A stretch of DNA of 64,000 bases, taken from an uncultured Lachnospiraceae bacterium. GTDB taxonomy: Bacteria; Bacillota; Clostridia; Lachnospirales; Lachnospiraceae. The notes beneath the pieces are model-generated. The model was not told the origin of the DNA. It saw only the letters and a list, made by a program, of their open reading frames with translations, and made no database searches. The DNA lies in contig CALWET010000016.1 of NCBI GenBank assembly GCA_944377385.1, positions 23,124-87,123 of the forward strand, in the 5' to 3' direction. Position 1 is the stretch's first letter. Each line of letters begins with the position of its first letter. A program made the position numbers and the translations under genes. Of this stretch, positions 8,217-42,294 are shown in pieces.

Positions 8217-8232
8217 GAATGATCTAAGATCG

Positions 8233-8348
8233 CCTTGTTGTTCAAAGCAAGCGCTTCGCTCAGGCAGGCACCTTCCTCAGGCTGCGTATTCCTGAAGGGG
8301 TTGCCGTGGCTTCACAGGTCCTATGTACCTCCACCACTCGAAACAAGG
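8233..8348 (-). ncRNA. SAM-I (S-box) riboswitch aptamer
   Basis: On the minus strand the P1 arms CCTTGTT (8348-8342) and AACAAGG (8239-8233) enclose the S-box core: GGTGGAGG, then TGAAGCCACGGCAACC, a P3 hairpin of CTTCAG/CTGAGG, and the AAGGTGCC segment. Spacing and order match the SAM-I consensus. It lies upstream of metK, the most common target of this class. Confidence 0.93.
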
Positions 8349-8373
8349 TTCAGTATTTGATTGCGTAAAATGT

Positions 8374-16134: not shown

Positions 16135-16200
16135 TATGGTATAATATCCGCACAAGGTGCGGATAAAGCCGCTTGGCGGCTTTCAGCGGCTCTGCCGCTG
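16135..16200 (+). repeat. 66-bp dispersed promoter/three-hairpin repeat, copy A
   Basis: It matches 41085-41150 at 64 of 66 positions. It begins with an extended -10 (TATGGTATAAT; TATAAT at 16140-16145), followed by three consecutive perfect stem-loops: CCGCAC/GTGCGG, AAAGCCGC/GCGGCTTT and CAGCGGC/GCCGCTG. It lies in the pgi upstream region. Because the second copy also sits at the head of a gene, the element looks like a transferable promoter plus structured 5' leader (inference). Confidence 0.85.
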
Positions 16201-16230
16201 GTTATACTATTCGCAATCGGAGATTGCTCA

Positions 16231-16293
16231 TACCACAGCCGGTCGAAGTAAATACTCGCTGCGCTTGTGCTTCCTTCGCTTGCGGCTGTGGTA
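16231..16293 (+). repeat. Long inverted repeat overlapping the second pgi promoter
   Basis: TACCACAGCC (16231-16240) and GGCTGTGGTA (16284-16293) form a 10-bp perfect stem. The right arm overlaps an extended -10 box. A small GCAATC/GATTGC hairpin (16213-16227) precedes it. Confidence 0.7.
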
Positions 16294-16301
16294 TAATATC
16301 C
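16289..16301 (+). promoter_or_regulatory. Second extended -10 for pgi, duplicate of the one in copy A
   Basis: TGGTATAATATCC at 16289-16301 is identical to 16137-16149, 152 bp upstream. It is an extended -10 (TATAAT 16292-16297) about 44 bases before the pgi start. The two identical boxes suggest two promoters, or a duplication created with the repeat. Confidence 0.6.
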
Positions 16302-16340: not shown

Positions 16341-17690
16341 ATGTCAAAGCATCTGAATCTGGATCATTCCAAGTTGGCAGGATTCATTTCAAAAGAGGAG
16401 ATAGATAATTTTGAAAAGATCACTGAGGCGGCCCGCCGGGAGCTCGTAGATGGCACCGGTGCAGGCAATGATTACATAGGCTGGGTAGACCTGCCCGTAA
16501 ATTATGACAGAGAAGAGTTTGAACGTATAAAAAAGGCTGCACAGAAGATACAGTCAGATTCCGAGGTGCTGGTGGTGACAGGCATAGGAGGCTCATATCT
16601 CGGAGCCAGGGCTGCCATAGAGTTCCTTACGAATTCTTTTTATAATGTTCTCGGCAGAGAGCAGAGGAAATATCCGCAGATATTTTTCGCAGGCAATTCC
16701 ATCAGCTCAAAGTACCTTTCTGATCTGCTGGAGGCCATAGGAGACAAGGATTTTTCCGTAAACATCATATCAAAGTCAGGTACTACCACAGAGCCTGCCA
16801 TAGCCTTCAGGGTATTGAAGGAAAAGCTTGAGGAGAAATATGGCAGGAAGGAGGCAGCTGCCCGTATATATGCCACTACCGACAAGGCTCGGGGAGCCTT
16901 GAAAAACCTTGCTGATGAAGAGGGCTATGAGGAGTTCGTCGTGCCTGATGATGTGGGAGGACGCTATTCCGTGCTTACAGCTGTAGGGCTTCTGCCCATA
17001 GCAGTGGCTGGCTGTGACATAGACATGCTCATGCAAGGCGCCCAGGACATGAGAGAGCTCTGCCTTAACAGACCTTATCATGAAAATGATGCCATGCTCT
17101 ATGCCGCCATCAGGAACATGCTGCACAGAAAAGGCAAATCAGTGGAGATACTGGCCAACTATGAACCCTCCTTCCATTATGTTGCAGAATGGTGGAAGCA
17201 GCTTTACGGCGAATCTGAGGGCAAGGATCAGAGAGGCATATTCCCGGCGACAGTTGACCTGACTACCGATCTGCATTCCATGGGACAGTTCATACAGGAC
17301 GGCTCCCGTATACTTATGGAGACCGTAGTTGATATAAATGAGAGTCCCGCAGAGGTGGTGCTTAAAAAAGAGGAGAAGGATACCGACGGCATGAATTATC
17401 TTGCCGGAAGGACCGTGGATTTTGTCAACAAGTCAGCCATGAACGGTACACTGCTGGCCCATACAGACGGCAATGTGCCCTGCATGAAGATAAATGTTCC
17501 AGGGCAGGATGCCCACAGCCTTGGCGAGCTCTTTTATTTCTTTGAGTTTGCCTGCGGCGTAAGCGGATACATACTGGGAGTAAATCCCTTCAATCAGCCC
17601 GGAGTCGAGAGCTACAAGAAAAATATGTTTGCCCTTCTTGGAAAGCCTGGCTACGAAGAGCTTTCCGCAGAGCTCAGAAAGAGGCTCTGA
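16341..17690 (+). CDS. pgi: Glucose-6-phosphate isomerase
   Basis: 449 residues, the short form typical of Firmicutes. [17 protein letters not shown] lies near residue 80; [16 protein letters not shown], the sugar-phosphate loop, and the late [15 protein letters not shown] segment are conserved. It interconverts glucose-6-P and fructose-6-P. The ATG at 16341 follows GGAGG; an ATG 5 bases upstream is out of frame. fba follows on the same strand. Confidence 0.97.
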
Positions 17691-20561: not shown

Positions 20562-20699
20562 GGCAGCGGGATGCGGGATCCATACTGCGGAGGATGAGCT
20601 GCCGTCTGCCTTTTAAGAGGCCTTCTGCAGAAAACTCCTTCGTCCGAAAAGCAACTCCCCGTCTTTTCGGCACTTCTACACATGTATCCCTACTCTGCC
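20562..20699 (-). ncRNA. Tetrahydrofolate (THF) riboswitch
   Basis: On the minus strand the RNA starts GGCAGAGTAGGGAT and contains GTGCCGAAAAGACGGGGAG, then TTGCTTTTCGGACGAA: the conserved GACGGGGAGUUG and GGACGAA blocks around a short stem are those of the folT-type THF-I riboswitch. The long-range closing helices are present: GGGAT/ATCCC plus CAT/ATG, and GGCAG (20699-20695) with CTGCC (20566-20562). It lies about 125 bases upstream of the S-component gene. Confidence 0.88.
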
Positions 20700-23039: not shown

Positions 23040-24227
23040 ATGAAGAAAAGGTCATATTTGCTTGCAGCGGCGCTTTCAATTTCCATGCTTGCAGCCCTTC
23101 CTGCCTTTGCCGGATGGCAGCAGGATACAAACGGATATTATTATCTTGACGGAACCAATCGAGTATATTCAAACTGGCTTCGCATGGCGAATTCCGGAGG
23201 CGGATATACATATTATTATATCGGACAGAATGGCTACATGGTCACGGGATGGCAGAAGATAAACAATGTATGGTATTACTTCTTCCCCTCAAATGGTACC
23301 ATGGCCACAGGCTGGCAGCAGATAGATGGACTTTGGTATTATCTGGATCCCACCAGCGGACAGATGAAGACAGGCTGGCACAATCAGCAGAACAACGGAA
23401 CGACGGATTATTATTATCTGAAGGATTCCGGAGCCATGGCCATAGGCTGGCGCCAGATAGACGGCAGCTGGTATTATTTCATGGATGATGGTGTCTGTGT
23501 CATCAATCTTTGGGTCCAGGTAGATGGAAAATGGTACTATTGCGGCAGTGACGGAAAGATGAAGACAGGCTGGCATGATCAGAATGGCAGCTGGTATTAT
23601 CTGGACAGCACAGGAGCCATGCAGACAGGCTGGCTTCGTGACAACACTCAGAATATACTTTATTACTGTGATCCCAATACCGGCATCATGGCCACTGAGT
23701 GGAAGCAGATAAACGGCAGCTGGTACTACTTCAACAGCAGCGGAGCCATGCAGACCGGATGGATCAAGAACAACTCCACCGGAGCATATTACTATCTCCA
23801 GTCAAATGGTGTGATGGCTGCAAATACCACACTGAACATAAACGGAGTCAATTATGCCTTCGATCAGAACGGAGTATATACAGGTACGGTCAGCCAGAGT
23901 GGAATGAGCAGTACCACGGCTCCTTCGGGCAATGTATCCGGTACTACGAACACCAGCCCCACAGGCAGTCAGACAAGCAGCCCCAGCGGGCCCAACATGT
24001 CACCTACCTATACCTCAGGCACTACCTCCGCACCCAGCTCAAATTATGGGCCAGGCTATGTAAACAGCGGGACTACGGTGTCCAGCGGATCCCATGCTAC
24101 AACGGCAACTGCGCCGTACATAAATTCCACAGGATCCTCAGGCATAGTAAGCGGCTCCAATCTGAGCAATGCCTATGACAGCTATGGCAATCTGATACCT
24201 GGATTGACCAGCGGGCCGCCGGCCTGA
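23040..24227 (+). CDS. Choline-binding / cell-wall-binding repeat surface protein
   Basis: 395 residues. The signal peptide ends at PAFA. Residues about 24-285 are roughly ten cell-wall-binding repeats of the type TGWQQIDGLWYYLDP and TGWHDQNGSWYYL, rich in Trp, Tyr and Gly, which in relatives bind phosphocholine on teichoic acid. The last 110 residues are a Ser/Thr/Gly/Pro-rich low-complexity tail. No enzymatic domain is seen, so it is a non-covalently attached surface protein. It lies directly downstream of the LicC/LicA-like fusion gene, which could make its ligand. The ribosome site is weak (GGGGG, 11 bases away). Confidence 0.88.
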   Translation: MKKRSYLLAAALSISMLAALPAFAGWQQDTNGYYYLDGTNRVYSNWLRMANSGGGYTYYYIGQNGYMVTGWQKINNVWYYFFPSNGTMATGWQQIDGLWYYLDPTSGQMKTGWHNQQNNGTTDYYYLKDSGAMAIGWRQIDGSWYYFMDDGVCVINLWVQVDGKWYYCGSDGKMKTGWHDQNGSWYYLDSTGAMQTGWLRDNTQNILYYCDPNTGIMATEWKQINGSWYYFNSSGAMQTGWIKNNSTGAYYYLQSNGVMAANTTLNINGVNYAFDQNGVYTGTVSQSGMSSTTAPSGNVSGTTNTSPTGSQTSSPSGPNMSPTYTSGTTSAPSSNYGPGYVNSGTTVSSGSHATTATAPYINSTGSSGIVSGSNLSNAYDSYGNLIPGLTSGPPA

Positions 24228-33161: not shown

Positions 33162-34337
33162 ATGAGTGTGGGGGCATTTGGTAGATCGTTCTGTCATAGG
33201 GCTGCGGCGTTTGCTGCGGCTTTATTTTTATGCGTTATAATGTTTTTCGCCACCGGGATCACAGCATTTTCGGCTGAGGGAAGCTGGCAGCAGGATACAA
33301 AGGGCTGGTGGTATCTGCTTGATGATGGAGGCTACAGTGCTGCAGGCTGGGAATACATAGATGGTGATATGTATTATTTTGATCGCGAGGGCTATCTGGT
33401 CACAAACTGTCTTGTGGCGGACAGCGGTTATATTTATATCGTTGACTCGGATGGCCGCATGCTGAAGGATACAAGTCTCCATATGAATGGGACCGAGTAT
33501 GTCATAGACAGCCAGGGACATGCGGTAACGGCTGCCATATACTATGCCTCGGTTGGCATGGGCGGATCCTCAGATGGGACAACTTTACAGGGCAGTGGAA
33601 ATACATCAGCAGGCACGGGCTCACCGGGCTGGAGGAGTGATGACACAGGCTCCTGGTTCGTAAAGGCTGACGGCAGCTATCCCGTGGATGCATGGGAAAA
33701 TATAGGCGGCACCTGGTATCATTTTGACAGCTTGGGTTATATGGAAAAGGACAGGCTTGTGTCCTTTCCCGATGGCACCTACAGGTATCTTGGAAATGAT
33801 GGAACGCCGGTAAAGGATACGGAGCTTAGCCTGGATGGAGTGGATTATACAGTGGATTCCGAGGGCGTGGCAGTTCCAAAGGCACCGCCAAAGACAGAAA
33901 ATGAACTGGCTGCCGAGGCCTATGCCGCAAATATAGTTTCCCAGATCACGAATGCTTCCATGACGAAGCAGCAGAAGGCAGCTGCCATATATAACTGGCT
34001 CAGGTCCAATATCAGATATACGAGCAGCGGGCCTCAGAGTGATGAGGCATATTCTGCTCTTTACGGTTTCAGGCGCCGCAGCGGCTGCTGCTATGAGTAC
34101 TATGCAATGGCTCATTTCATGCTTGAAGCAGCGGGCATGCCAAATATCCCGGTGATCAGGGCCAGTGACAGAGGACATTACTGGAATCTGGTGGATATAG
34201 ACGGCACCTGGTATCATTTTGATGCCACGCCAAGGCGACTTGGCGGTAACTGGTGCCTGGTAACTACAGATTATCTCAGGCGCAACTCCTGGGGCTCACA
34301 TAATTTTGATGTATCGGCATATCCTGCCACTCCATGA
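33162..34337 (+). CDS. Cell-wall-binding-repeat transglutaminase-like protein
   Basis: 391 residues. A signal peptide ends near AFSA. Two blocks of choline-binding-type repeats follow (GSWQQDTKGWWYLLDDGG and about residues 160-225). The C-terminal transglutaminase fold has the Cys in RRRSGCCYEYYAMAHFML, the His in RGHYWNLVDIDG and the Asp in WYHFDATPR, a full Cys-His-Asp triad. It could be a surface peptidase, amidase or crosslinking enzyme held on the wall by its repeats. It starts at an ATG after GGGGCA. A paralogue follows after 18 bases. Confidence 0.85.
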   Translation: MSVGAFGRSFCHRAAAFAAALFLCVIMFFATGITAFSAEGSWQQDTKGWWYLLDDGGYSAAGWEYIDGDMYYFDREGYLVTNCLVADSGYIYIVDSDGRMLKDTSLHMNGTEYVIDSQGHAVTAAIYYASVGMGGSSDGTTLQGSGNTSAGTGSPGWRSDDTGSWFVKADGSYPVDAWENIGGTWYHFDSLGYMEKDRLVSFPDGTYRYLGNDGTPVKDTELSLDGVDYTVDSEGVAVPKAPPKTENELAAEAYAANIVSQITNASMTKQQKAAAIYNWLRSNIRYTSSGPQSDEAYSALYGFRRRSGCCYEYYAMAHFMLEAAGMPNIPVIRASDRGHYWNLVDIDGTWYHFDATPRRLGGNWCLVTTDYLRRNSWGSHNFDVSAYPATP

Positions 34338-41030: not shown

Positions 41031-41069
41031 TGAGGCATACCATGCTGTGGTATGCCTCAAATTTTTTTT
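41031..41069 (+). terminator. Terminator after nfnB
   Basis: TGAGGCATACC pairs perfectly with GGTATGCCTCA, then AATTTTTTTT. Confidence 0.92.
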
Positions 41070-41084
41070 ACGGATGTGAAAAAC

Positions 41085-41150
41085 TATGGTATAATATCCG
41101 CACAAGGTGCGGACAAAGCCGCTTTGCGGCTTTCAGCGGCTCTGCCGCTG
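41085..41150 (+). repeat. 66-bp dispersed promoter/three-hairpin repeat, copy B
   Basis: 64 of 66 bases are identical to 16135-16200. Both differences keep the hairpins (one is in a loop, one between stems). The extended -10 TATAAT is at 41090-41095. It sits between the nfnB terminator and the CdaR-type gene, 53 bases before its start codon, so it is very likely that gene's promoter and leader. Confidence 0.85.
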
Positions 41151-41202
41151 TTTTACAACTCGCACAAGCAGAAGGTATGATAGTTATGGAGAGGGGTGCG
41201 AT

Positions 41203-42294
41203 ATGCTATCGAATACGACATTGAAGAACACTCTTGACGGGATAAAGGCGATCGCGGGGGTCGATCTTTATCTTTTTGATCCGGATGGAAGTCAGGTATG
41301 CTCCACTGAGCAGCCGGAACAGAAATACGAGCTCTGGGCCCAGGATTTTGCTGCATCAGAGGCTGATACCCAGAGCATGTCGGGGATCTATTTCGTCAAG
41401 ATCAGAGACAAGGGCTCACCGGTATATGTGCTTGCGGCAAAGGGAGCGGGAGATGAGACCCAGGTCTTCCTGAAGCTTGCTGCCTTTCAGCTGCAAAACA
41501 TGATCAGCTCTGACAAAGACCGGTTCGATAAAGACAATTTCCTGAAGAATGTAATACTGGACAATCTGCTTCAGATAGACATACTGGAGAGGGCCAGGAA
41601 GTTCCATGTTGAAAATGAGCTCAGGCGTCTCGTTTACATCATAAATGTGGAGGACGACAGCGACAATACCGTTATCGACGCCATCAGGCCTGTTTATGGA
41701 GAAAACGCAGGGGGCTATGTATTCAAGGTCGATGAGCAGCATATCATATATATAAGGGATATAGGAGACGAGACCTCCGACGAGGCGTTTTCTGCCATAG
41801 CAGAGGGCATGCTGGAACTCATAAATACCGAGTGCAGCGTAGAGGCATGCATTTCCTATGGCAATGCCGCCCCAGAGCTCAAGGATCTTTCCCGCTCATA
41901 TAAGGAGGCGGGCCTTGCCATGGATGTGGGACGCATTTTCTATAATGATCTCAGGATCATGGCCTATTCCAAGCTGGGCATAGGCAGGCTGATATATCAG
42001 CTGCCCATAAGCCTGTGCAAGATGTTCATAAATGAGGTATTTGGAAAGAACGATCCTGATGATCTGGACGAAGAGACCATCCAGACCATAGATCAGTTCT
42101 TCGAGGATTCCCTTAATATCTCAGAGGCCTCAAGGAATCTCTACATCCACCGCAATACACTGGTATACAGGCTTGACAAGCTGGAAAAGACCCTGGGGCT
42201 TAACATAAGGAATTTTGATGATGCCATGACGCTCAAGATAGCACTTATGGTCGATACCTATATGGATTACATAGAAAAAAATCATATAAGATGA
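41203..42294 (+). CDS. CdaR/PucR-family transcriptional regulator
   Basis: 363 residues from the ATG at 41203, which follows GGAGAGGGG. An upstream in-frame GTG at 41107 falls inside the repeat element and was rejected. The C-terminal PucR-type helix-turn-helix is NISEASRNLYIHRNTLVYRL (about 315-345), typical of carbohydrate-diacid or purine-catabolism regulators. The N-terminal part (about 10-110) is a sensor-like domain containing DLYLFDPDGSQV. Effector and targets unknown. It is 11 bases upstream of tyrS, probably co-transcribed. Confidence 0.83.
   Translation: MLSNTTLKNTLDGIKAIAGVDLYLFDPDGSQVCSTEQPEQKYELWAQDFAASEADTQSMSGIYFVKIRDKGSPVYVLAAKGAGDETQVFLKLAAFQLQNMISSDKDRFDKDNFLKNVILDNLLQIDILERARKFHVENELRRLVYIINVEDDSDNTVIDAIRPVYGENAGGYVFKVDEQHIIYIRDIGDETSDEAFSAIAEGMLELINTECSVEACISYGNAAPELKDLSRSYKEAGLAMDVGRIFYNDLRIMAYSKLGIGRLIYQLPISLCKMFINEVFGKNDPDDLDEETIQTIDQFFEDSLNISEASRNLYIHRNTLVYRLDKLEKTLGLNIRNFDDAMTLKIALMVDTYMDYIEKNHIR

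Follow-up and report, generated by a model that had tools for sequence, protein, structure and literature searches.

The 64,000-nucleotide stretch of DNA analyzed here (the window) carries two nearly identical short sequences, copies A and B, ahead of two different genes, which raises the question of what kind of sequence this is and whether it brought a promoter to these genes or arrived at promoters that were already there. Positions 16135-16203 and 41085-41153 share 96% identity over 69 nt (2 mismatches, or 97% identity, within the 66 nt singled out in the initial sequence-only reading), a likeness far above chance (E = 2.3e-26 in a search of the own genome), and the flanks of A and B are unrelated to each other, as that reading had stated. 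In both copies, TATGGTATAAT is followed directly by three hairpins, whose stems had been described as perfect; they are so in copy A, but the first stem of copy B has A/C as its outermost pair. Copy A leads into pgi (PF00342) and copy B into a gene for a PucR/CdaR-type regulator (HTH_30 and GGDEF_2), also as proposed, with the start of the regulator corrected to the ATG at 41203, outside the repeat, as in its orthologues. The 66-bp module had been taken for the whole element. A covariance model (R1) built from 14 full units, copy A among them, matched A over 160 bp, which speaks against a 66-bp cassette: in A the module forms the 5' portion of a longer, 160-bp unit, and B is such a unit truncated behind hairpin three. 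All other R1 matches in the window were antisense re-hits at A or B or had E values of at least 0.5.

The full unit is opened and closed by GGTATAAT; in its fold, a closing stem encloses three hairpins, and two further hairpins come after it. The second TGTGGTATAAT of copy A, in the outer arm of the long hairpin, ends 43 nt upstream of the pgi ATG. The features at the two loci are as follows.

16138-16297, forward strand: copy A, the full 160-bp unit (R1, 187.9 bits, model positions 1-160)
16140-16145, forward strand: left TATAAT, interpreted as the -10 box native to pgi (genomes G019 and G006, which lack the element here, have TATAAT at the corresponding position)
16146-16200, forward strand: hairpins P2 (16146-16164), P3 (16165-16183) and P4 (16184-16200) (folds and covariation)
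16202-16210, forward strand: TTATACTAT, pairing with ATGGTATAA (16136-16144) as stem P1 (fold and pair counts)
16213-16227, forward strand: hairpin P5, 6 bp (folds)
16230-16294, forward strand: long hairpin P6 with arms ATACCACAGCCG and CGGCTGTGGTAT (fold; inverted repeat I2, 12 nt, 100%)
16292-16297, forward strand: right TATAAT, candidate second pgi promoter (from its sequence)
16341-17690, forward strand: pgi, glucose-6-phosphate isomerase (PF00342, E = 8.5e-21)
41088-41150, forward strand: copy B, a unit cut after P4 (R1, 59.5 bits)
41090-41095, forward strand: TATAAT of B, read as the native regulator -10 box (TATAAT in G019 and G006 without the element; TTTACG 17 nt upstream)
41203-42294, forward strand: PucR/CdaR-type regulator gene (PF13556, PF17853)

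A terminator with a 13-pair stem and a T run lies just 5' of copy B (41031-41059); its stem holds ATACCA..TGGTAT, which resembles the P6 arms and may do so by coincidence. Elsewhere, the window contains a THF riboswitch (20562-20699, reverse strand) and a SAM riboswitch (8232-8349, reverse strand), both above Rfam gathering scores, and direct repeats within the coding sequence of two genes (23290-23762 and 33285-34222), which resemble cell-wall-binding repeats (GGTW/WYY motifs).

We searched for copies beyond these two. Five sites (A, B, C39, C17 and C52) are present in the host genome (G000, a Candidatus Avilachnospira relative; 1.58 Mb, 84% complete), so that the existence of just two copies, a condition for refuting the initial reading, does not apply; a match on C43 consists of the 13-mer TGGTATAATATCC alone. 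Matches occur in 5 of 25 genomes of the genus, with counts that include antisense re-hits of palindromic copies: 65 in G009, 13 in G008, 9 in G000, 2 in G006 and 1 in G017. The match in G017, a distant genome, is weak (L150, 868-962; 31.2 bits) and resembles P6 only. The description of the sequence as a REP/MITE-like element with a promoter was thus near the mark, in that it is a dispersed repeat with further copies in its own genome and in relatives. Like MITEs, the copies are short, non-coding and dispersed (160-bp units, up to 65 matches in one genome); terminal inverted repeats are absent, since the unit ends are direct repeats of GGTATAAT and the inverted repeats are internal. From Ca. 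A. avistercoris we retrieved 46 matching regions, some of them tandem arrays; arrays comprise two or three units joined at TATAAT (e.g., L103, L104 and L105). Several G009 contigs terminate within copies, as expected of repeats in assemblies, and near-identical copies at G009 contig ends (L125, L126, L119, L132 and L133) suggest recent expansion of one subfamily. Another subfamily (L145, L143, L153 and the tail of L133) has a first stem of AAATTTCGC/GCGAAATTT in place of the GC-rich form. A solo three-hairpin module occupies the same place in G006 and G009 (L149, 855-936, and L152, 840-921, in regions 92.6% identical over 1289 bp) and may be an old insertion or a separate leader.

The 29 stretches found with a strict sequence pattern all came from three other records of the Avilachnospira clade, as if the repeat were restricted to the genus; this was overturned when the covariance model reached other genera. 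Across the family, 23 of 250 Lachnospiraceae genomes, the own genome included, match at an E value of 0.001, with diverged relatives of the repeat in other genera. Among the loci examined, which come from 11 of the 22 other genomes, two arrangements recur. Type I has TATAAT in the sense orientation at its ends (G118, G144, G173 and G192). Type II has the same P5/P6 core (G135, G158, G191, G217 and G032), with the P6 end adjoining the -10 box of a promoter on the other strand. The core is also present, without a clear -10 box, in G138 and G111. Carriage on viral contigs was considered as well and set aside: three exact patterns gave 0 matches, a kind of search that diverged copies would escape.

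To what extent do the flanks look like promoters? TATAAT is exact at 37 of 42 left junctions, mostly with a TRTG-like motif before it; these junctions were picked by hand as first array units with a recognizable left end, and because the type I model itself contains TATAAT, this core count is biased, while the -35 count is unaffected. Matches to TTGACA peak at a spacer of 17 (mean of 2.48, with at least 4 matches in 10/42), compared with means of 1.17 to 1.93 and counts of 0 to 5 at the other spacers from 8 to 34. For 41 of the 42 junctions (without L154), the mean is 2.49 at spacer 17 versus 1.57 (SD, 0.17) elsewhere, a value reached by 0 of 20,000 random-spacer sets, with the qualification that some junctions are orthologous (e.g., L001/L140 and L104/L145) and hence not fully independent. 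The type II model does not require the box, and yet the perfect TATAAT is found in 22/40 junctions (21/39 without L309 on the forward strand, which is probably not an element) and at least 5 matches in 34/40, in a set that leaves out 3 junctions close to the ends of contigs; over the same positions, 3.6% of shuffled flanks contain a perfect box. No good -10 box is found at 6 of the 40. The type II -35 signal again peaks at 17 (2.62; 8/34), against 1.09 to 2.09 at other spacers. Promoter and downstream gene share a strand at 42 of 61 loci (opposite at 9, unscored at 10), as scored by a crude longest-frame test that seems to have miscalled L109 and L149, and at 27 of 34 type II loci (opposite at 3, unscored at 4). 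At copy B, a promoter scan found TTTACG, 17 nt and TATAAT (2 sites versus 0.9 expected). The same simple scan gave no -35/-10 pair on the forward strand at copy A, which would make A a promoter of the extended -10 kind whose -35 box is weak.

Comparison with element-free relatives allowed us to ask to whom the left -10 box belongs. At pgi, G019 and G006 have ACTTATGTTATAAT at the place of ACTTATGGTATAAT plus the element in G000, and at the regulator they have ATCTATGCTATAAT at the place of AACTATGGTATAAT; the upstream regions are unrelated in G009 at pgi, where there is no element, and in G008 and G009 at the regulator. For L154 (G009), the joined flanks align with G019 gap-free around the junction, TTAGGGTATAATTTAAAT, and for L145 (G008) the native GTATAATG aligns; the left flank of its orthologue L104 aligned poorly with G019. 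Thus, a native -10 box is clean at the junction at 4 of 16 compared sites (pgi, the regulator, L154 and L145). A further 4 of 16 (L003, L107, L109/L147 and L144) are suggestive, with a -10-like box in the orthologous gap at a resolution short of base-by-base alignment; 3 (L131, L136 and L143) are ambiguous, and at 4 (L105, L106, L121 and L137) a native -10 box is absent. The second copy at L101 has a right-side match only, TATAATACTTACATCTTTTGGAGGTG on both. L124, L128 and L153 have flank matches to G019 on one side only. Since element-free relatives have a -10 box at the junction, the left -10 box seems to be the target's own, and at the best resolved sites the promoter was in place before the element; the right TATAAT may act as a second promoter with a second start. 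The label of mobile promoter/leader cassette was therefore only half right.

The two ends of a unit tend to agree. The first and last 8-mers are the same in 20 of 30 full units (shuffle mean of 9.6; 0 of 10,000 as high), a count inflated by shared ancestry and arrays in a set picked by hand, and the identical pairs include the rare variants GGTATACT and GATATAAT. In the 10 units with differing ends, a hexamer other than TATAAT stands only at the right in 8, only at the left in 1 and at both ends in 1. This pattern fits either target duplication or co-evolving ends, and the TATAAT may belong to the element. The pgi site has a history of its own. The element occupies it in G000 and G008, the site is empty in G006, G009 and G019, and a tree of PGI and the regulator reads ((G009,G008),(G000,(G006,G019))), with within-clade support values of 90-99%. 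A single ancestral insertion in G000 and G008 is weakened by this separation and by the two filled units being only 85% alike, each nearer other copies (18 units compared); copy A is 93% like another copy of its own genome. Given these observations, repeated use of the same -10 box, exact loss and conversion are all conceivable.

We conclude that the repeat is probably a non-autonomous, non-coding mobile element of ~155-165 bp, MITE- or BOX-like, that prefers to insert directly 3' of a sigma-A -10 hexamer. The data show dispersal, arrays, covariation in the multi-hairpin fold, native -10 boxes at sites that lack the element and orientation towards the downstream gene; many copies fit the junction rule, several do not, and no copy was seen to move within a species. 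A mobile repeat with no strong site choice could instead bring its own -10 box, with the surviving copies being those that replaced or spared a promoter. The extended -10 at the right end of the element and the copies without a native -10 box in relatives (L105, L106, L121 and L137) would be accommodated by such a repeat, but it is unlikely given that the left junction is the native -10 box at all four clean sites and that the -35 boxes in the outside flanks, at 17 bp, are too exactly placed for selection on an imported -10 box alone.

We also looked for an enzyme that might move the element. IS200/IS605 elements and REP sequences use single-strand hairpins with guide bases that pair with the ends, an architecture that P1 and P6 resemble, and RAYT-associated REPs carry a GTAG-type tag at the hairpin foot. 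However, the four element-bearing genomes G000, G006, G008 and G009 (84-91% complete) gave 0 matches to Y1 transposase, the enzyme expected of both systems. Nor did the element resemble the ends of 20 Y1 loci (best E value of 0.033), and Y1 transposon ends were rejected on these two grounds. IS110 was above the cut-off in 2 of 11 searched genomes, G118 and G191 only, and was rejected because it fell below the cut-off in the same four carriers. No related autonomous transposon was found in these searches, which covered the Y1 and IS110 families in incomplete genomes. The lack of both transposase families in these four carriers would be expected if the repeat spread without a transposase, by rare recombination or template switching at short TATAAT matches, with palindrome correction keeping the stems perfect; common arrays and truncated copies, and stems that are almost purely Watson-Crick with few intermediates, are likewise in keeping with this route. 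We nevertheless consider it improbable, because six shared bases are little for recombination and because it leaves the preference for promoters over other TATAAT strings unexplained.

The alignments also bear on the fold and on the level at which it acts. Across 14 units, 96.6% of 796 cells pair, and both sides change in 23 of 57 pairs (shuffle mean of 10.4, 0 of 500 as high; 1 to 4 in slid versions); standard pair types in these units were not above shuffles (29 versus 30.5). The TATAA part of P1 is invariant across the 14 units while the other stems vary, which points to a constraint there beyond pairing. In the best 45 rows of 112 aligned matches, 2042 of 2283 pair cells are Watson-Crick, 132 are G-T, 51 are A-C and 58 are other. 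Of the G-T cells, 97 sit in three near-constant columns; with those columns excluded, a choice made after the data were seen, G-T (35) is not above A-C (51), unlike the wobble tolerance expected of an RNA. Stem covariation without wobble preference makes the fold look DNA-level, and we infer that it is important in DNA or else that palindrome correction maintains it. DNA folds of both strands are strong (z scores of -8.4 and -9.1), as is the RNA fold of the sense strand (z score of -7.4). Types I and II share one core and would be transcribed from opposite strands. An Rfam search of nine loci (E values up to 1) gave only a chance-level Spot_42 match elsewhere in L252 and none at the element, the Rfam search of the window likewise had no hit there, and an Rfam RNA family was accordingly rejected. 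The suggestion that the stems re-pair with one another in a leader RNA is not supported by these results, as the first stem has its 5' strand between the -10 box and the expected start, wobble is not favoured and type II would be read from the other strand. The strong RNA fold, the covariation and a location where mRNAs are expected to begin would suit a structured leader RNA or an mRNA stabilizer at the 5' end that owes its spread to a useful RNA. This reading is very improbable, however, with P1 and the 5' strand of P2 preceding the expected start, G-T no commoner than A-C outside the three constant columns, two types that would be transcribed oppositely and no Rfam match.

For a non-autonomous element with a preference for -10 boxes, the course of events might be as follows. 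The folded element would insert 3' of a -10 box, leaving TATAAT at both ends. The native promoter would retain its -35 and -10 boxes at the left, the gene would gain another TATAAT at the right, and insertion therefore need not silence the gene. Copies may move by transposition of the folded single strand, with the internal TTATAC and ATACC pairing with the two ends as guides, and melting in open promoter complexes might be what makes the -10 box the target. More tentatively, and as a possibility we would not favour at present, the repeat could represent a Lachnospiraceae-wide class of single-strand-folding mobile elements that enter the melted -10 box of active sigma-A promoters and whose internal guides change with the -10 box. 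If this melting scenario is true, the element would be a bacterial counterpart of yeast Ty3, whose integration is targeted to start sites.

Among known repeats, bcr1 of the Bacillus cereus group (~155 bp, structured, mobile, with a short, duplicated AT-rich target, TTTAT) is alike in size, structure, mobility and AT-rich target by its general description, but its target is TTTAT and not a -10 box. Correia elements, MITEs of Neisseria, are portrayed in the available portion of one account as small structured repeats near genes with sigma-70-like promoters, one of them just downstream of the mtrCDE promoter (PMC10969869), and MITEs usually have, in a similarly partial source, inverted repeats at their termini, TA ends and a duplicated target (PMC2229807). 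Compared by these descriptions, the ends here differ in being direct TATAAT repeats, and the site is often the -10 box itself. BOX elements of pneumococcus are modular, rich in hairpins, variable in length and often upstream of genes; by description they share the modular, hairpin-rich build, but their host is unrelated and the excerpted text describes no -10 rule (PMC3049150). A limited search of open papers returned no recognized account of a -10-targeting repeat or of this repeat family. As far as these partial sources go, MITEs that bear promoters and modular repeats of the BOX kind are already known, and the limited search brought up no general rule by which repeats insert at the -10 box.

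Bacteria commonly carry small palindromic repeats, but few known to us select a functional site. By landing on a -10 box with TATAAT left at either side, an element could spread while doing little damage and rewire the starts of genes throughout a major family of the gut. Were the site choice active, transposition would be linked to open promoter complexes, and promoter positions could be read from insertion maps. Some leaders and promoters of Lachnospiraceae may thus be repeat-derived.
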